Part shown: piece by piece, positions 1,175 to 15,717 of the stretch
Layout: each line of letters starts with the position of its first letter
How positions within the stretch are numbered: the stretch's first letter is position 1
Source: a virus
Virus record (IMG/VR): IMGVR_UViG_3300020009_000090
Span: 1 to 20,591 of that record
Length of the DNA stretch: 20,591 nucleotides
Reading direction: 5' to 3' (one strand)
Program-made: the position numbers and the translations under genes
The notes under the pieces: model-generated
The model's database searches: none
The model's input: only the letters and a program-made list of their open reading frames with translations
What the model was told of the DNA's origin: nothing

Positions 1175-2527
1175 ATGTACGAACTAAGCAATGACCCCGT
1201 CATTATTGTTATTGATCTATTCGGCGGTGGCGGCGGGGATGCCACTGGACTCTTTCAAGCCGAAATTGATGGCCGTATGGTTGTTGTGGTAATTATTTGT
1301 GTCAACCATGACAAGATTGCCTTACAAACACACGAGTACAACTATCCACACGTAAAACATTTTAAGGAAGATGTAAGAACAGTTGATCTATCAGAATTAG
1401 AATCAGTTGTTGAATTTAATAGAAAGTTATATCCAAATGCAAAGCTTGCAGTGTGGGGCTCGTTTCCTTGCCCACATTTCAGCAAAGCACTTGGAAATAA
1501 GCCAAAGGATGAGGGAATAAGAACAATGGCAAAGTCGCTTTACATGAATTATGATCAGGTAAAGCAAAAACACGTTGAAGGAAATAGTTATATCCAGGTA
1601 TTGAACCCTGATTATATAATAATAGAAAACGTAGAAGAATTTAAGAGCTGGGGGCCATTATGTGAAAAGGGAAAACCGATAGTCAAACAGAACGGAATGG
1701 ATTGGCTAAGGTGGAAAAAAGACGTGTGCTCATTTGGGTATTTCGATGAGTGGAAAGAGTTGAATAGTGCAGACTTTGGTGCACATACTTCAAGAAACAG
1801 ACTATTTGGAATTTTTGCTAAAAACGGGCTGCCTATTGCATGGCCTCAGCCAACACATGCAAAGAATCCAGAAAGAGAAGGTTTGTTTTCATCATTGAAA
1901 AAATGGAAACCGGTTAAGGATCTAATTGATTTTAACGACATAGGTACCAGTATAATTAATAGAAAAAAACGGCTTGCAGAAAAAACGATTCGTGGAATTA
2001 TCAAGGGTATTAAAAAGTTTGCGCTCAAAGGAGAGGAATATTTTCTTTTTCACTATTACGGTAATAATTTTTGTACCTCAGTAAATGATTCTTGTCCCAC
2101 TATAAGAACAAAGCAGTCGGCCTACTTAATACAGGCCTTTATACACAACCCTTCGCATGGTGGCCACTGTACTTCCATAAACAGCCCCTGCCCCGTCATT
2201 GTTGCAAGACAAGATAAAGCTCCATTAAGGATTGCCACTTGTATAAAAAAAGATTCAACCATAACAATTGAAGAAACAGATTCAGATGCATACAAAGAAT
2301 TAAAAACATTGATGATTGAAAACGGCATTGGTGATGTGTATTACAGACCGCTGAGGGTGCAAGAAAAGAAAGTTATTCAGGGGTTCCCCGCAGACTATCA
2401 TTTATGTGGTAACCAGGCACAGCAGGACAAGCAAATAGGAAATAGTGTCGCTCCCAAAGTTGCAAAGGTTATCGGTGAAGCATTATCGGAAAGTATTATT
2501 GGTCATAACAAAGCAAAAGTTGCGTAA
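1175..2527 (+). CDS. C5-cytosine DNA methyltransferase
   Basis: 450 residues, about the usual family length. It would transfer a methyl group from S-adenosylmethionine to C5 of cytosine. Motif I is D-L-F-G-G-G-G-G (14-21). The catalytic Pro-Cys is in FPCPHFS (97-103, Cys99). Motif VI is ENV (151-153). Motif VIII is the R-x-R-L-F variant SRNRLFG (206-212). Motifs IX/X are RPLRVQE (391-397), QGFP (402-405) and QIGNSVAP (420-427). The target-recognition region between VIII and IX holds two similar copies of a C-T-S-[VI]-N-x-x-C-P segment at 300-308 and 332-340. The stop overlaps the next start (TAATG), coupling it to the adenine methyltransferase. The likely role is protecting phage DNA from host restriction. 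Sequence specificity cannot be read from the sequence. Confidence 0.95.
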   Translation: MYELSNDPVIIVIDLFGGGGGDATGLFQAEIDGRMVVVVIICVNHDKIALQTHEYNYPHVKHFKEDVRTVDLSELESVVEFNRKLYPNAKLAVWGSFPCPHFSKALGNKPKDEGIRTMAKSLYMNYDQVKQKHVEGNSYIQVLNPDYIIIENVEEFKSWGPLCEKGKPIVKQNGMDWLRWKKDVCSFGYFDEWKELNSADFGAHTSRNRLFGIFAKNGLPIAWPQPTHAKNPEREGLFSSLKKWKPVKDLIDFNDIGTSIINRKKRLAEKTIRGIIKGIKKFALKGEEYFLFHYYGNNFCTSVNDSCPTIRTKQSAYLIQAFIHNPSHGGHCTSINSPCPVIVARQDKAPLRIATCIKKDSTITIEETDSDAYKELKTLMIENGIGDVYYRPLRVQEKKVIQGFPADYHLCGNQAQQDKQIGNSVAPKVAKVIGEALSESIIGHNKAKVA

Positions 2528-3204
2528 TGAACACACTGTTTGAAAGAAATATTACTAACTATAAAGATGAGTGGCTTACACCTCCATCGATAATAAAAGC
2601 ATTGGGAGAATTTGACCTAGATCCTTGTGCTCCTATAAACAGACTTTGGGACACTGCTAATAACCATTTTACTATCGCTGATGATGGTTTGCAAAAGCAA
2701 TGGTTTGGCCGTGTGTGGTGCAACCCCCCTTACTCAGATAACATTAACTGGCTAAAAAAATCTGTTCATCACGGCAATACAACGGTATTAATTTTTGCAA
2801 GAACTGAAACAAAATGGTTTTTTAAATATATATGGGAAGCAGCCGACTCAATTCTGTTTCTTAAAAACCGAGTAAGTTTTTTAACAGATAAGGGAGTAAA
2901 GAAATGGAATGCCGGCGCTCCTTCGGTTCTTGTTGCCTATGGTAAAAATAATGTTGATGCAATTGAGGACAGTAAACTACCAGGCAAGCACATTTACCTG
3001 AACTATACGCCAATGATCATAGTAGGAATATCTCCTACATGGTTTTCGGTTGTAAGCATAGCAATAAAACATTTTGGTGATGATGAGTTGAAGCCTGTTT
3101 ATGACTTGGTTGAAATAATGGCCCCCGATAAGATCATAAAAAATCAGCACTGGAAAGCAAAGGTCAGACAACAGGTTCAGGAGTGGAGGAAAAAGAAACC
3201 GTAA
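2527..3204 (+). CDS. Phage N6-adenine DNA methyltransferase (Dam-type) with C-terminal extension
   Basis: 225 residues. The motifs are those of the phage Dam family: DEWLTPP (14-20), FDLDPCA (29-35), the catalytic NPPY motif in CNPPYS (65-70), and NAGAPSVLVAYG (128-139). It would methylate adenine N6 in DNA using S-adenosylmethionine. Residues from about 165 onward form an extra segment ending in W-K-A-K-V-R-Q-Q-V-Q. This resembles the small winged-helix (HARE-like) domains that I recall being fused to phage Dam proteins; that part is inference. Start and stop overlap the neighbours (TAATG on both sides), so it is translated as part of one operon with the cytosine methyltransferase. Confidence 0.93.
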   Translation: MNTLFERNITNYKDEWLTPPSIIKALGEFDLDPCAPINRLWDTANNHFTIADDGLQKQWFGRVWCNPPYSDNINWLKKSVHHGNTTVLIFARTETKWFFKYIWEAADSILFLKNRVSFLTDKGVKKWNAGAPSVLVAYGKNNVDAIEDSKLPGKHIYLNYTPMIIVGISPTWFSVVSIAIKHFGDDELKPVYDLVEIMAPDKIIKNQHWKAKVRQQVQEWRKKKP

Positions 3205-5153: not shown

Positions 5154-5365
5154 ACGAAAAAGAAATCATTGAAAGACTGATGGCCAAGGCTGAACTAGCC
5201 AGGGAGTCACAGAACTACTATTTCGCTAACAGGAACCCTGTTAACCTTAAGCTGTCAAAGGCAAAAGAATTTAACCTTGACATGGCATTAAAGGAACTTA
5301 GGAAACGAGGTTACAGCCCTGATCAATATAAAAAAGAGGATAACAAACAAGCAAACATTTTTTAG
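5150..5365 (+). CDS. Small helical phage protein ending in a clamp-like motif
   Basis: 71 residues, starting in an ATGA overlap with the previous gene. Almost the entire chain is predicted charged helix by eye (EIIERLMAKAELAR, DMALKELRKRG). The last five residues are QANIF, a loose match to the Q-x-x-[IL]-F sliding-clamp or PCNA-binding pattern, placed exactly at the C-terminus where such peptides often lie. It is the last gene before the replication cluster. No family is recognised. Confidence 0.65.
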   Translation: MNEKEIIERLMAKAELARESQNYYFANRNPVNLKLSKAKEFNLDMALKELRKRGYSPDQYKKEDNKQANIF

Positions 5366-7537: not shown

Positions 7538-7975
7538 ATGAACTGGACAGAAAAACACATAAAGGGGCTTCTACACAATAACACAATCAAAGGTTATTCT
7601 GCAGACGTAAAAAAAGAGAACACTCCTGCCCTGCCACAAAACCATAAATCAAAAGCTTTGACCTGGTTGGAGTGGAATCTTTCCTACTGGTGCAACGAAC
7701 ATTCACTTACTCTTGAAAAAGAATATCGCTTTTGTGATCGTGGTTGGAGGTTTGACTTTGCCATTGCAACGGGGTCCTTAAAAATTGCAGTTGAGTTTGA
7801 GGGTGGAATATTTAGGCAATATAGCAATCAAAGCGGAGCACATTCAACAGCAAAACTATTTACTAAGGACACAGACAAATACAATAGGGCTTCGGTCCTT
7901 GGTTGGAGAGTTATAAGGGTTACTGCCATGAATTACACAACAGTTTTAACCACGTTAAACGAAATGATCAAATGA
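7538..7975 (+). CDS. PD-(D/E)XK-like phage endonuclease
   Basis: 145 residues, ATG two bases after the helicase stop. The core has the order seen in small restriction-like nucleases: R-F-D-F-A (Asp73), then V-E-F-E-G-G (Glu86/Glu88), a conserved H102 and a D-x-D-K-Y-N segment with Lys114, ending in L-G-W-R-V-I-R-V. It resembles the phage endonucleases related to DUF559 and VRR-NUC-type folds. The substrate cannot be told; a branched-DNA or recombination role next to the helicase is plausible (inference). The stop overlaps the next start as ATGA. Confidence 0.78.
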   Translation: MNWTEKHIKGLLHNNTIKGYSADVKKENTPALPQNHKSKALTWLEWNLSYWCNEHSLTLEKEYRFCDRGWRFDFAIATGSLKIAVEFEGGIFRQYSNQSGAHSTAKLFTKDTDKYNRASVLGWRVIRVTAMNYTTVLTTLNEMIK

Positions 7976-11179: not shown

Positions 11180-11611
11180 ATGCCAATACTTAACTACACA
11201 ACAGGAATAGAAGCCTGGAAAACAGTGAATGAAATTCAGCAGATAATGAGCAAACACAAGGTTACTCACTTCTCAATAAAGAATGAGGGGAGTTTTCCGG
11301 TTGCATTGTCTTTCACGATCGATTATATCGGCACACCAATGAATTTTCTTTTACCATGCAATCATGCCGGAGTATTAAGATGTTTAAAAGCTGATCGCAA
11401 AGTACCCAACAGCAGTAAGAACGAAGAACAAGCTTTGCGTACAAGTTGGAGAATCATAAAAGATTGGGTTGAGTCACAACTTGCAATTGTAGAAGCAGAA
11501 CTAGCGCCGATACAGGAAGTGTTTATGCCATACCTGGTCATTAATGCAACGGGTGAAACATTATCACAACGAATGTTGAAAGGTGATGGAATGAAGCTGT
11601 TAGAATCTTAG
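11180..11611 (+). CDS. Conserved phage protein of unknown function
   Basis: 143 residues. The pattern is one I know from many tailed-phage genomes: M-P-I-L-N-Y-T-T at the start, V-A-L-S-F-T-I-D near residues 41-48, an R-T-S-W-R-I-I-K-D-W-V-E-S-Q segment near 86-99, then E-A-E-L-A-P-I-Q-E-V-F-M-P-Y-L near 105-119. It is commonly found in early or middle operons beside recombination or replication genes. No catalytic residues can be named. Confidence 0.78.
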   Translation: MPILNYTTGIEAWKTVNEIQQIMSKHKVTHFSIKNEGSFPVALSFTIDYIGTPMNFLLPCNHAGVLRCLKADRKVPNSSKNEEQALRTSWRIIKDWVESQLAIVEAELAPIQEVFMPYLVINATGETLSQRMLKGDGMKLLES

Positions 11612-11626
11612 CAAATTTTATTAGCA

Positions 11627-11653
11627 TTGTATTTGCTAAATTCATTAGTTTTG
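11627..11653 (+). promoter_or_regulatory. Bacteroidota-type promoter
   Basis: TTG at 11627-11629 is followed after 16 bases by TAGTTTTG at 11646-11653, an exact match to the Bacteroidota -7 consensus TAnnTTTG. It lies in the 59-base gap before the gene at 11671, placing the transcript start just upstream of that ATG. Confidence 0.6.
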
Positions 11654-11670
11654 TTGAACCCCGTTTTTAA

Positions 11671-12162
11671 ATGTATCCAATACCTCAAACGACAGACTAC
11701 AGACTGATTGGAAAATTACTACTGATTAAAATGCCCGAGGTGGCCGAGGATCTACTAACAAAACATAATAATGAAACCAGGGAAATGGAAGTTGTTAAGC
11801 CACTTGAAACTGATCATGCAAAAATATTTTTATACTTCATACAGTTTTGCAGATTGAAACAAAAAGAGCCCACACAATTCTTTGGTTACTTAAGAGAAAA
11901 AATATTAATAGATGCCAGGATGGAGTTTGTTGCGGCACTTCTTCATATTTATTCACCGATCGTTTTTGTGGCTACAAAAGAATTTATGTTTCTGTACCGG
12001 AGCAGCATGGCAGAAATGGGATTGATCAAAAGCATTAGCAATGTTTTGAACGTGAGACAAGGCAGCGTTAGTAAGATGGTCCGGAAAATAATTGTGAGGG
12101 AGAAAGCTTATGAAGATTTCAGAGAAAATGTAAATGATCTTTTTAAACAGTTATCAAAATGA
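11671..12162 (+). CDS. Possible DNA-binding regulator (HTH-like)
   Basis: 163 residues, preceded by a promoter-like sequence. The N-terminal ~70 residues are helical. From about residue 110, the segment M-G-L-I-K-S-I-S-N-V-L-N-V-R-Q-G-S-V-S-K-M-V-R-K looks like a helix-turn-helix: a helix, a turn at N-V-R-Q-G, and a Ser/Lys-rich recognition helix. It ends in an acidic helix (YEDFRENVNDLFKQL). I recall similar Bacteroidota phage proteins without a name. The stop overlaps the HNH gene as ATGA. A transcriptional role is inference. Confidence 0.62.
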   Translation: MYPIPQTTDYRLIGKLLLIKMPEVAEDLLTKHNNETREMEVVKPLETDHAKIFLYFIQFCRLKQKEPTQFFGYLREKILIDARMEFVAALLHIYSPIVFVATKEFMFLYRSSMAEMGLIKSISNVLNVRQGSVSKMVRKIIVREKAYEDFRENVNDLFKQLSK

Positions 12163-12593
12163 TTCATCACGAAATAATATTAATCTCTAAGGGCGGTGGA
12201 TATATGAGATGTAAAACACGGCCAATTCACCCAAGGGCCGACGTTAATGGTTACAGAAAATTGCATAGAACCATTATTGAAAATAATTTGGGCCGGTACT
12301 TGAATGATGATGAACACGTTCACCATATAGACGGAAACAAGTATAACAACGATCTTTCAAACCTTGAGGTTTTAAATAATTCAGAACACGGCAAGAGACA
12401 CCACTCACCGCTACCGTTAGTAAATTGTATTTGTGCTGAATGTGGAAGCCATTTTCAAGAAATACCAAGATTTTACAGGCTAAGAATTAAAAGAAATAAG
12501 AACGGAAAGCTGTGTTGTTATCGTAAGTGTGCATCAAAATTTCAATTTAAAAACCAGGCCGCGGAGTGTAGCAGTGGCAGCTTCCTTGGCTGA
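12159..12593 (+). CDS. HNH endonuclease running into a tRNA gene
   Basis: 144 residues, ATGA-coupled. The HNH core is V-H-H-I-D-G-N-K-Y-N-N-D-L-S-N-L-E-V-L-N (54-73) followed by S-E-H-G-K-R-H (75-81), typical of phage HNH and homing-type endonucleases. The C-terminal part has paired cysteines, C92-x2-C95 and C119/C120/C124, suggesting a zinc finger for DNA binding. An in-frame ATG at 12204 (residue 16) is an alternative start. The last 10 codons are read from inside the tRNA-like gene at 12561, and the TGA stop lies in its anticodon loop, so the natural C-terminus may have been lost or replaced. Confidence 0.85.
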   Translation: MIHHEIILISKGGGYMRCKTRPIHPRADVNGYRKLHRTIIENNLGRYLNDDEHVHHIDGNKYNNDLSNLEVLNNSEHGKRHHSPLPLVNCICAECGSHFQEIPRFYRLRIKRNKNGKLCCYRKCASKFQFKNQAAECSSGSFLG

Positions 12594-12643
12594 CTTCCAA
12601 GGGGTCGAGGAGTTCGATTCTCCTCCTCCGCAACCTGGTTTTT
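12549..12643 (+). repeat. Perfect 10-bp inverted repeat enclosing the tRNA-like gene
   Basis: AAAAACCAGG (12549-12558) is perfectly complementary to CCTGGTTTTT (12634-12643). With two unpaired bases on each side it stacks directly onto the acceptor stem of the tRNA-like structure. The right arm ends in five T residues, so the whole element could act as an intrinsic terminator or as a processing guide. Confidence 0.8.
12561..12632 (+). tRNA. tRNA-like gene, anticodon GAC (Val), unusual 6+6 stem
   Basis: A cloverleaf can be drawn: acceptor stem GCGGAG/CTCCGC (6 bp), D-arm with A14, G18-G19 and A21, anticodon stem CTTGG/CCAAG with loop CTGACTT, variable loop GGGTC, and a T-arm with TTCGATT. T8, U33, C48, T54-T55-C56 and the discriminator A73 are in place. 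The T-stem has 6 bp, so acceptor plus T-stem still total 12. Base 37 is U instead of a purine. CCA is not encoded. Anticodon GAC (12592-12594) would read valine codons. Whether it is charged and used is unknown. Confidence 0.72.
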
Positions 12644-12686
12644 CATAGGATGATGAATTTGTAATTACTAACAGAGCCTTAACTTA

Positions 12687-12714
12687 AAACCCTGCTATTC
12701 TTAGCGGGGTTTTT
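12687..12714 (+). terminator. Strong intrinsic terminator
   Basis: An 11-bp stem (12687-12697 with 12702-12712, one G-T wobble) with the 4-base loop TTCT is followed directly by T residues. It lies downstream of the tRNA-like gene and upstream of a new promoter, separating the two transcription units. Apart from the tRNA, this terminator, the promoter at 12800 and the leader hairpin at 12848, I see nothing in 12594-12887. Confidence 0.85.
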
Positions 12715-12799
12715 GTTGGTCCTAAATACTAACTTTTTTGGCAATTTGTGGGTAAAAGTGGTAAAAATATTAGCAAAAATATATTTTGAATAAAACTTG

Positions 12800-12827
12800 T
12801 TGAAATCAAAAAAGGGGTTTATATTTA
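12800..12827 (+). promoter_or_regulatory. Bacteroidota-type promoter of the cargo unit
   Basis: TTG at 12800-12802 (or 12797-12799) and TATATTTA at 12820-12827 match TTG-N17-TAnnTTTG with one mismatch. It lies between the terminator and the first gene of the ArdC-containing unit, in a very AT-rich stretch. Confidence 0.6.
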
Positions 12828-12847
12828 CATATCATTTAGCACGAAAA

Positions 12848-12880
12848 ACAGGTAGCCGCCCTGACTAAAAAGAAGGCATC
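12848..12880 (+). promoter_or_regulatory. Cargo leader element 1: hairpin plus GGCATCAAA
   Basis: A small stem CAGG/CCTG (12849-12852 with 12860-12863) is followed by CTAAAAAGA and then GGCATCAAA just before the ATG at 12888. The same order recurs before three other genes downstream, at 13303, 13741 and 14820. It lies between the promoter and the gene, so it is transcribed as a 5' leader. Confidence 0.5.
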
Positions 12881-12887
12881 AAAAGTC

Positions 12888-13295
12888 ATGACAACTTCAC
12901 AAAGAATTACATTAAACGAGTACAAAAAACTCAACACTATCAATGATGCTGCAAAGGCTATTTTGATAGTTCTTAAAACCTTCAACAAAACAGAGGTTCA
13001 AGAAGTTTTGCCTATTATTTTGGGCATGGTTGAAAAGCACCAAAAAGAAAACGTTTACCCTGAATTGAACGAACCAGAAAGCATTTTTGAAAACTCAATA
13101 CTTGAAAGTGAGTACAAAAAATTTCCTGAAAAAATAGTGGTAATAATTGAAACAAGCAACAACCCACACGGTGATTGGGCTTTGACCGTTTGCGATAAAG
13201 ACGAGCAATTGGGCCAATATTTTTATGACAGCAAAGAAGATGCACAAAAGGACGGCGATAAACTCGAAGAATTTTGTAATGTAACATTTGAATAA
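12888..13295 (+). CDS. Unknown cargo protein
   Basis: 135 residues, the first gene of the unit. The N-terminal half is helical (NDAAKAILIVLKTF, VQEVLPIILGMVEKH). The C-terminal half is a likely beta-alpha domain starting at I-V-V-I-I-E-T and containing H-G-D-W-A-L-T-V-C-D and an acidic end. No family is recognised. It shares its leader with the DUF6573-like and ArdC genes, so it may act in the same antirestriction or conjugation-related programme (inference). Confidence 0.65.
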   Translation: MTTSQRITLNEYKKLNTINDAAKAILIVLKTFNKTEVQEVLPIILGMVEKHQKENVYPELNEPESIFENSILESEYKKFPEKIVVIIETSNNPHGDWALTVCDKDEQLGQYFYDSKEDAQKDGDKLEEFCNVTFE

Positions 13296-13302
13296 TAAAA
13301 AA

Positions 13303-13339
13303 ACAGGGTACGAAACCTGTCTAAAAAGATCGAATCAAA
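13303..13339 (+). promoter_or_regulatory. Cargo leader element 2: hairpin plus CGAATCAAA
   Basis: ACAGG (13303-13307) pairs with CCTGT (13316-13320), followed by CTAAAAAGA and CGAATCAAAT directly before the ATG at 13341. The CTAAAAAGA block is identical to that in leader 1. Apart from a short A-rich stretch after the previous stop, the leader fills the gap between the genes. Confidence 0.5.
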
Positions 13340-13340
13340 T

Positions 13341-13727
13341 ATGAACAATCAAACCACAATTACAGACATTTTCGGGCCGGTTATCTCTTCTTATTCAAGA
13401 AAACAAGCAATTGAGGACGGCTATTTGCACCCTGTTAGCGAACTTTTTCCTAGCGATTGCAGAATTTACAAATACCCTGTTTGCTTCTCTAATGAAGTTG
13501 TAAACCTAATTGAAGGTGACAATATGGGGGCATGGGTTTGGGACATTTGTTTTATGTCTGCTAAATGCCCCACAAAACAATTGGACCCGACAAGGCAATT
13601 ATTCAAAGTCACATTACCAAGAAAAAAAGGGACCACAGCAACAAAAACTTTTGAACTCATGGCTATATGCGGCCCTGATGATAACGCAGCGCCATGCATA
13701 ACAATTTGTTTTCCTAACGAAGATTAA
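13341..13727 (+). CDS. DUF6573-like protein
   Basis: 128 residues. The N-terminal F-G-P-V-I-S-S-Y-S-R-K-Q-A-I-E-D-G-Y-L (11-29) is the recognisable opening of DUF6573 proteins, which I know mainly from mobile elements and phages, often close to ArdC genes. Later segments (V-W-D-I-C-F-M near 67, L-F-K-V-T-L near 87, I-T-I-C-F-P at the end) fit a small beta-rich protein with several cysteines. Biochemical function is unknown. Confidence 0.78.
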   Translation: MNNQTTITDIFGPVISSYSRKQAIEDGYLHPVSELFPSDCRIYKYPVCFSNEVVNLIEGDNMGAWVWDICFMSAKCPTKQLDPTRQLFKVTLPRKKGTTATKTFELMAICGPDDNAAPCITICFPNED

Positions 13728-13740
13728 TTAACCGAACATA

Positions 13741-13785
13741 AAACCGGGGTTGCAAGCCCCGGTTTAAAAAAAAGATTGCATCAAA
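13741..13785 (+). promoter_or_regulatory. Cargo leader element 3: strong hairpin plus TGCATCAAA
   Basis: AAACCGGGG (13741-13749) pairs perfectly with CCCCGGTTT (13757-13765) around a 7-base loop, followed by an A-run, then TTGCATCAAAT and the ATG at 13787. The downstream part matches leaders 1 and 2. The stem is followed by A residues rather than T, which argues against a plain terminator on the plus strand. Confidence 0.6.
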
Positions 13786-13786
13786 T

Positions 13787-14668
13787 ATGAATAACGTTTA
13801 TCAAATAGTAACAGACAGAATTTTAGATATAATGAAAACCGGAAAATTGGTATGGGTGAAAAATTGGCAAGCCCGGGCCGGTAATGTGCCGCAAAATTTT
13901 GTATCTAAAAAACATTATAACGGCATAAACTTTTTGTTTCTCTCTTCGCTGCCATATTCAAACCCGTATTATTTGACATTTAACCAGGTTAAAAATTTAG
14001 GCGGGCATGTAAAGAACGGAGAAAGATCACAGCCCGTTATTTTCTGGAAAATAAATCAATATTCAAAAGATAAAGGTGACGGGACACAAGAAACAAAAAA
14101 TGTACCTCTATTAAGATACTACCCTGTTTTCAATATAGAACAGACCGAGGGCATTGAATGGAAAATGCCAGACACAGCACCAAAGACAGAACACGAACGA
14201 ATTGAAGCAGCCGACAGTGTAATTAATAACATGCCACAAAGACCAGACATTGAATATTCAGATTTTGACCGGGCATGTTATAACAAAGTAAAAGATCTGG
14301 TCACAATGCCACACTTGCAATATTTCAAAACTAATGAGGCATACTACTCAACATTATTTCACGAGTTAGCACATAGCACCGGGCACGTTACAAGATTGAA
14401 CCGTGAAGAGCTGCAAAGAGTTTCAATGTTTGGTAGCGAAGATTACGGTAAAGAAGAGTTGACCGCTGAACTTTCGGCAAGTTTTATATGTGCTAGAATA
14501 GGCATTTCAAATGTTGACAATCTTAGAAACAGTGCAGCCTATTTGCAGGGTTGGAGTAAAGCGATAAAGAATGACCCTAAAATGTTTGTTCATGCAGCGG
14601 CCCGGGCACAAAAAGCAGCCGACTTTATTCTAAATGAAAAACCAGAAACCGGTATTGATCACGAATAA
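13787..14668 (+). CDS. ardC: ArdC-type antirestriction protein (zinc metalloprotease)
   Basis: 293 residues, close to the usual ArdC length. The N-terminal domain (1-125) is the ssDNA-binding ArdC/DUF1738 type: V-Y-Q-I-V-T-D-R-I-L, W-Q-A-R-A-G (28-33), Y-N-G-I-N (44-48), T-F-N-Q-V-K-N-L-G-G (64-73). The C-terminal domain carries the zinc site HELAHSTGH (192-200) and Y-G-K-E-E-L-T-A-E (220-228), which supplies the third ligand in this fold. ArdC proteins protect incoming DNA from restriction enzymes. Its presence in a leader-linked cargo unit suggests acquisition as a counter-defence block, alongside the phage's own DNA methyltransferases. Confidence 0.93.
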   Translation: MNNVYQIVTDRILDIMKTGKLVWVKNWQARAGNVPQNFVSKKHYNGINFLFLSSLPYSNPYYLTFNQVKNLGGHVKNGERSQPVIFWKINQYSKDKGDGTQETKNVPLLRYYPVFNIEQTEGIEWKMPDTAPKTEHERIEAADSVINNMPQRPDIEYSDFDRACYNKVKDLVTMPHLQYFKTNEAYYSTLFHELAHSTGHVTRLNREELQRVSMFGSEDYGKEELTAELSASFICARIGISNVDNLRNSAAYLQGWSKAIKNDPKMFVHAAARAQKAADFILNEKPETGIDHE

Positions 14669-14678
14669 AAAAACTACA

Positions 14679-14795
14679 ATGAAAAAATTAATATTATTAT
14701 TTGCAGTTGTCATTGTCCTGGTATCATGCCGGACAACAAAAGAGCCATGCGGCAACCCTGCAAAGTGGGAAAGAAAGCATTCATTCAACAAATAA
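14679..14795 (+). CDS. Small 38-residue lipoprotein
   Basis: A short frame 10 bases after the ArdC stop encodes 38 residues. It has a lysine-rich start (MKK), a hydrophobic core (LILLFAVVIVLV), and a lipobox with Cys17 (L-V-S-C, residues 14-17). After lipid attachment the mature peptide would have about 22 residues, Thr/Lys/Glu-rich with a second cysteine. It would be anchored in a membrane. A role beside ArdC, such as altering the host cell surface (exclusion), is inference; similar tiny lipoproteins occur in mobile elements. Confidence 0.72.
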   Translation: MKKLILLFAVVIVLVSCRTTKEPCGNPAKWERKHSFNK

Positions 14796-14819
14796 AATCT
14801 TTATTAATAAAAAACCGTG

Positions 14820-14846
14820 GCGGGTCGGTATATACCCGCATCAATT
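14820..14846 (+). promoter_or_regulatory. Cargo leader element 4: hairpin plus CGCATCAA
   Basis: GCGGGT (14820-14825) pairs with ACCCGC (14834-14839), and the stem is followed at once by ATCAATTTTT and the ATG at 14850. This is the same hairpin-then-G(C)ATCAA design as leaders 1-3, and it favours 14850 over the GTG at 14817 as the start. Confidence 0.5.
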
Positions 14847-14849
14847 TTT

Positions 14850-15686
14850 ATGAGAAAACAAAAAAACAGTGGTAAGCAAATAGAACCACACAAAGAAGTA
14901 AGTGCAAGCATTCAGGCAGCGATCAAAGAAGTTGCAAAAAAGTACAGGCTGAAAGATATGGAAGCAGCCATGTTGTATGCCCTTAAAGACAAAGACGTTG
15001 ATTATGAAATTAATTATTCAGAAGGGTTGAAGAAAAGCATTTTTGAAAAGCTTGACAACCATAGCTGGTTTGATTATGATGATAACACAAAGAAAATTTT
15101 AAGTGAATTGGCAGTTGAGTTTATTACAAAAGTTGATGCTCGTTATGCAACCAGGAAAAACGTTAAGAACGGAACTGATCTTTTTCCTTCTCAGGCTAAC
15201 ATACCAGAATTTAACCCCGACAACATACAGGCAGTTAAAATAAATAAACCAAAAATAGTTAAGCCACAACCGGCACCCGTTAAACCGGCTGAACCATTGA
15301 CAAAAGAAAATGTAAAGGGTGAATTTGATCGCATTACCAAGCTAATAAAGGGCACTGATGAAATGGTTTTTGAAAGTTGGGGGCCTGATGCAATCACCCG
15401 TAAATGGGACAATAAAAATTTGATCACAGTATCTTTTGACGTTGACGGGTTTTTGTTTGCTGGTACTGTATCGGTAACAAAATTGCACGACCGTGGCACG
15501 TTTACCGTCTCATTGCTGACAGGTAAAAAGAAACCGGCAAAGGTCCAAAAGATCGTTGAGAAGGTAAAGGGCGAAGATTTAAACGGGCTTATTGATATGC
15601 TGGTAGAATGTGACAGCTATGATAAATGGCAAGAGAAAATGAATGAGACGTATAATGTAACAACCGAAGAAAAGAAAGCGGCCTAA
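14850..15686 (+). CDS. Unknown two-domain cargo protein
   Basis: 278 residues from the ATG at 14850; a GTG at 14817 would read through the hairpin and is less likely. The N-terminal ~115 residues are helical and basic (SIQAAIKEVAKKYRL, KKILSELAVEFITK). A Pro/Lys-rich linker (PKIVKPQPAPVKPAEP) leads to a C-terminal domain (about 160-278) with strands such as LITVSFDVDGFLFAGTVSV. No catalytic motif is seen. The leader ties it to the ArdC unit; a helper role in the same unit is only inferred. Confidence 0.68.
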   Translation: MRKQKNSGKQIEPHKEVSASIQAAIKEVAKKYRLKDMEAAMLYALKDKDVDYEINYSEGLKKSIFEKLDNHSWFDYDDNTKKILSELAVEFITKVDARYATRKNVKNGTDLFPSQANIPEFNPDNIQAVKINKPKIVKPQPAPVKPAEPLTKENVKGEFDRITKLIKGTDEMVFESWGPDAITRKWDNKNLITVSFDVDGFLFAGTVSVTKLHDRGTFTVSLLTGKKKPAKVQKIVEKVKGEDLNGLIDMLVECDSYDKWQEKMNETYNVTTEEKKAA

Positions 15687-15696
15687 TTATTAATCG

Positions 15697-15717
15697 GGGG
15701 GCCTTCGGGTCCCCTTT
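15697..15717 (+). terminator. UUCG-capped hairpin closing the cargo unit
   Basis: GGGGGCC (15697-15703) pairs with GGTCCCC (15708-15714, one G-T wobble) around a TTCG tetraloop closed by C-G, a very stable loop type. Only three T residues follow. It can mark the end of the cargo unit or act as a leader hairpin for the next gene. Confidence 0.65.

Follow-up and report, generated by a model that had tools for sequence, protein, structure and literature searches.

The window, that is, the whole stretch of 20,591 bases analysed here, is a virus record in which most starts have no Shine-Dalgarno sequence before them (a simple count gave 11%). Because the order of its PAPS reductase-like, ParB-like and terminase small subunit genes is that of Riemerella phage RAP44, the window was treated as a Bacteroidota-type phage. 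Three consecutive genes on the + strand are the subject of this analysis. Gene 12888 (12888..13295) encodes a protein of 135 aa with no relative in Pfam, PHROGs, NCBIfam or plasmids. Gene 13341 (13341..13727) encodes a 128-aa DUF6573 protein (Pfam PF20213, E 2.3e-12), and gene 13787 (13787..14668) encodes an ArdC-type antirestriction protein (PHROG 7245) carrying an ArdcN domain (Pfam, 7.7e-28) and a zincin-like peptidase domain (MPTase-PolyVal, 1.5e-33). The next gene considered, 14850, has no relative in Pfam, PHROGs, NCBIfam, plasmids, phages, viral contigs or genome contigs. Structure prediction gave models of too low quality for use for both unmatched proteins, 12888 (pLDDT 47) and 14850 (pLDDT 43). 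The proteins of genes 12888, 13341 and 13787 belong to differing families or to none, and gene duplication is not indicated.

Several other features of the window were observed. A C5-cytosine methylase and a Dam-type adenine methylase (1175-3204), together with ArdC (13787-14668), make up three possible means of restriction escape. The 3' end of an HNH endonuclease frame (12159-12593) lies within a tRNA-Val (GAC) at 12561-12632, and a hairpin with a T-run lies near 12690-12712, downstream of the tRNA. At the contig end (1-277), a 9-bp unit, AGTGGTTGC, is repeated in tandem about 31 times and reads in one frame as Val/Ala/Ile repeats.

Each of the three consecutive genes is preceded by the same 17-base leader, AAAAAGANNGMATCAAA, which reads AAAAAGA-NN-G-(A/C)-ATCAAA. 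Sequence reading and a scan found exactly three occurrences in the window, all on the + strand. The first copy (E1, AAAAAGAAGGCATCAAA, 12867-12883) lies 4 nt upstream of the ATG at 12888, and the second (E2, AAAAAGATCGAATCAAA, 13323-13339) and third (E3, AAAAAGATTGCATCAAA, 13769-13785) each lie 1 nt upstream of the ATGs at 13341 and 13787, so that the ATCAA of the three copies ends 2-5 nt before the start codon. The best other site in the window matched 15/17 positions. Pairwise similarity of the copies is unremarkable in such A-rich sequence, since the best pair agrees at 15/17 positions and shuffled sequences also reach 15. The three-way sharing is different: the observed score was reached in 0/300 dinucleotide shuffles, and its z-score of 5.2 was the highest among 35 Bacteroidota-type loci given the same test, figures that serve as guides because the motif was noticed prior to testing. 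On reading, the next-ranked loci showed for the most part partial pairs or promoter boxes. What is directly observed is the common sequence, where it lies and its excess in the statistical tests, and a leader shared by three unrelated genes is real, as known from one genome. Since the three genes are not apparent duplicates, the leader became common to them without the genes themselves.

The ATCAA part of the leader was also examined at the remaining starts. ATCAA occurs within 15 nt before 7 of the 37 starts in the window, against about 1 expected, and these occurrences cluster at 11180-14850, where 6 of 8 starts carry it compared with 1 of 29 elsewhere in the window. The starts at 7972, 11180 and 12159 also have ATCAA directly before them, in these cases with no strong hairpin. 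We considered whether ATCAA is a general start signal of Bacteroidota and rejected this, as it was barely enriched among 869 starts of other Bacteroidota-type replicons (38 near vs 30 far). Start-proximal ATCAA therefore appears to be peculiar to this phage.

A hairpin ends 2-3 nt upstream of each 17-mer. In E1 (12849-12863, + strand) it is weak, with a 4-bp stem (CAGG, a 7-nt loop, CCTG) that falls outside the minimum-energy fold of the stretch, and it does not differ from dinucleotide shuffles (p=0.49). The E2 hairpin (13303-13320, + strand; 5-bp stem, ACAGG..CCTGT) gave p=0.02, and the strong E3 hairpin (13741-13765, + strand; 11-bp stem, AAACCGGGG..CCCCGGTTT) was matched in 0/300 dinucleotide shuffles (z -3.7). 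The core arms of E1 and E2 are identical (CAGG/CCTG), and among the three the stem has changed in E3 only. In their alignment one pair is compensatory and one is broken, and 167/500 shuffles were equally good. Furthermore, in other Bacteroidota phages and plasmids a strong hairpin was present in 12% of the gaps between same-strand genes vs 2% of shuffled ones, indicating that intergenic hairpins as such are ordinary. No Rfam family matched in the window at the gathering score. Given the uneven hairpin p-values, the same arms in E1 and E2 and the ordinariness of intergenic hairpins, structural selection, which the first-pass annotation had suggested, was not demonstrated. Its underlying observation, that the stems differ while the layout is kept, applies to E3 and to the hairpin before gene 14850, and fails for E1 and E2.

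The same annotation had counted gene 14850 as a fourth bearer of the hairpin and leader. This arrangement was confirmed for genes 12888, 13341 and 13787 but not for 14850. The element before the latter (E4, 14820..14849, + strand) consists of a hairpin, GCGGGT..ACCCGC (p=0.09 vs dinucleotide shuffles), and then ATCAATTTTT, directly before the ATG; it has only ATCAA in common with the leader and was not recovered by a covariance model built from E1-E3. In addition, an in-frame GTG at 14817 would place the E4 hairpin within the gene. A further hairpin (E5, 15696..15714, + strand; p=0.04) precedes gene 15730 and is not followed by ATCAA.

The covariance model was run on the window, on 90 loci and on 41 whole related or similar records, and outside the window nothing convincing was recovered from the loci or the records. 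The five best whole-record matches scored below 20 bits, compared with 45-55 bits for the true copies. Five locus matches were read out, none of which stood at a real gene start; two end in an ATG that opens frames of 1 and 14 codons. Within the window, a fourth match (5306-5351) was rejected because it lies within a coding gene and has no ATG at its end. When 2.9 million viral contigs were scanned for exact patterns, most of the matches listed fell within longer open frames, and none of those listed placed a hairpin and leader at an intergenic start. BLASTN of E1 in phages and of E3 in plasmids returned nothing relevant.

Relatives of the downstream genes gave a similar result. The leader is missing before the ArdC relatives (38-44% identity) that Bacteroidota plasmids carry, and likewise before the DUF6573 and ArdC relatives in viral contigs, most of which have Shine-Dalgarno-type starts; no ArdC relative was present in the genome contigs searched. 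Of five plasmids checked, one had DUF6573 beside ArdC. ArdC was the only one of the four cargo genes to match an antirestriction family. With one antirestriction-like gene and no convincing leader copy in other genomes, the portable antirestriction module that had been proposed for this region is unsupported, and the outcome of the covariance search, which had been suggested as a check, speaks in part against portability.

Translation control, also raised in the first-pass annotation, is the best-supported reading of the leader, which is adjacent to the ATG, A-rich, without a Shine-Dalgarno sequence and largely unpaired in E2 and E3; in addition, E2 and E3 have no U-tract, nor a promoter recognisable by eye. 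Flavobacterium johnsoniae uses Shine-Dalgarno-less, Kozak-like initiation in which A-3 and A-12 are positive determinants, and the A-rich upstream sequence together with A-3 tunes initiation in that organism (PMC6847099). In phages related to the one analysed here, starts are likewise preceded by A-rich positions -10 to -14 and by A-3, with no Shine-Dalgarno sequence. E2 and E3 partly resemble the F. johnsoniae initiation region, in lacking a Shine-Dalgarno sequence, in being A-rich upstream, in having A-3 and A-12 (with G at -13) and in their low structure near the start; the upstream accessibility of their starts ranked 7 and 3, respectively, among 37. E1 has G-3, G-12 and G-13, and hence neither A-3 nor A-12. 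The F. johnsoniae feature, however, is a positional base preference, whereas here a specific 17-mer is common to the three genes and is intact in E1 even though it has moved 3 nt from the ATG. The retention of the E1 leader despite this shift indicates that the sequence itself, beyond ribosome spacing, is common. This suggests either that the 17-mer matters as such or that its copying was recent, and the data fit both.

Taken together, these observations led us to a reading to which we assign about even confidence: E1-E3 would represent a phage-specific, Shine-Dalgarno-independent start leader that stands behind an insulating hairpin and was spread by local copying. The unit would consist of the hairpin, 2-3 nt, AAAAAGANNGMATCAAA, 1-4 nt and the ATG. 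Bacteroidota promoters have the consensus TTTG/TAnnTTTG, and by sequence reading a promoter-like, Bacteroidota-type CTTG-N20-TATATTTAC lies upstream of E1 (12796..12828, + strand); no promoter was seen by eye before E2 or E3. A single rightward transcript probably starts near 12830. On this transcript, the A-rich stretch would hold the initiation site unpaired and may contact the ribosome. The strong hairpins of E2 and E3 end at -21/-22, where the initiation region would have its upstream limit; they may shield the site from upstream mRNA or mark an RNA 5' end. The leader would have reached the adjoining unrelated genes via local copying and been retained as it works. The presence of only three copies in one genome, the weakness of the E1 hairpin, the lack of A-3 and A-12 in E1 and the G at -13 in E2 and E3 weigh against this start-leader reading.

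Possible, although we consider it doubtful, is that the locus combines ordinary Bacteroidota gap architecture with a short leader that was recently duplicated locally, so that the 17-mer has no special function. The frequency of strong gap hairpins in other Bacteroidota phages and plasmids is in accord with this explanation, as are the generality of A-rich starts and the failure to find leader copies elsewhere. Against it, ATCAA is not general in those replicons yet is enriched and clustered in the window, and the stem and the NN positions have diverged while GMATCAAA has been retained, a pattern that is read from three copies only.

Alternatively, a protein or RNA encoded by the phage or the host could bind the hairpin and leader and jointly control translation of the three genes; we regard this as unlikely. 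Translational operators typically consist of a hairpin, a fixed spacer and an invariant sequence at the start codon, and the layout of the present elements is of this kind; the retention of the leader in E1 despite the 3-nt shift also agrees with recognition by a regulator. However, the E1 hairpin is weak, the stems of E1 and E2 are unlike that of E3, and a candidate regulator was not identified. The more specific form of this proposal, a sequence-specific translational operator, in a phage of a phylum that dispenses with Shine-Dalgarno pairing, in which a phage or host factor would recognise the leader and co-regulate the cargo genes with no mRNA-rRNA pairing, is rather improbable in our judgement.

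That the hairpins are intergenic transcription terminators, attenuators or RNase processing sites is very unlikely. They do sit in intergenic gaps, and E4, with ATCAATTTTT after it, was scored as terminator-like. However, E1-E3 lack the G+C-rich hairpin followed by a U-run that defines an intrinsic terminator, E2 and E3 having no U-tract; they are followed by A-rich instead of U-rich sequence on the + strand, and none was scored as a + strand terminator. This explanation would also leave GMATCAAA at the ATG unaccounted for. Hardly credible is a conserved boundary sequence for swapping single genes between phages by homologous recombination, of the kind proposed for some phages (cited in PMC3233612): the common sequence lies exactly at the borders of unrelated genes, as do the short identical sequences of mosaic phages, but a stretch of about 17 bp is short for this process, the position here is tied to the ATG, and no partner phage with the same boundary was found among the listed viral-contig matches or the loci and records searched with the model.

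The start-leader reading was compared with the start-associated sequences (SAS) of cluster K mycobacteriophages, which have a 13-bp consensus, GGGATAGGAGCCC, with a Shine-Dalgarno core, and are present in 11-19 copies per genome, conserved across many phages (2011, PMC3203893). SAS lie 3-7 bp before the starts of unrelated non-structural genes, in large gaps and in one orientation, with at most two mismatches; about half have an inverted repeat (ESAS) just upstream, and a role in translation has been proposed but is unproven (PMC3203893). The ESAS are imperfect 17-bp inverted repeats of conserved sequence that may contain promoters (PMC11373665). As in SAS/ESAS, a short non-palindromic repeat stands near the ATG of unrelated genes, in one orientation and with an inverted repeat upstream, and its distance of 1-4 nt from the ATG is comparable, E2 and E3 being slightly nearer than 3-7 bp. 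By analogy with these elements, the leader probably works as they do. Unlike SAS, however, AAAAAGANNGMATCAAA is A-rich, has no Shine-Dalgarno core and does not fit the GGGATAGGAGCCC consensus, and three copies were present in a partial genome of 20.6 kb, with no convincing copy in the 41 related or similar records. Unlike ESAS, the stems are 4, 5 and 11 bp long, the same core is found only in E1 and E2, and no promoter was seen in E2 or E3. Because consensus, copy number and inverted-repeat sequence all differ, the leader was not classed as a member of SAS/ESAS. Start-associated sequences are known from mycobacteriophages, where the Shine-Dalgarno core confounds their reading; a like layout under Shine-Dalgarno-less initiation would allow the role of such sequences beyond rRNA pairing to be asked. 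It would also supply expression tools for Bacteroidota with a compact translation leader.

Shared sequences before starts were also noted in other replicons. In another Bacteroidota-type phage (L143), two adjoining genes at 7652 and 7950 have a common leader, GTCAAACATTTAAATCAAA(A)ATATT, before the ATG. In a Shine-Dalgarno-using phage (L214), a small hairpin and then GGAGGAAAGGGA precede three small genes on the - strand (9754, 10239 and 10386), a repeated start arrangement similar to the present one. In a Runella plasmid (L243, 3999 and 4968), the HNH and ArdC genes are preceded by the same duplicated sequence, which includes a box resembling a promoter as well as CTACGTAATCATTCACAATCAACC. 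At two further loci (L190 and L196), TAACTTTGTAAAAACAAA-type sequences before starts match the Bacteroidota -7 box TAnnTTTG, placed very near the start codon.
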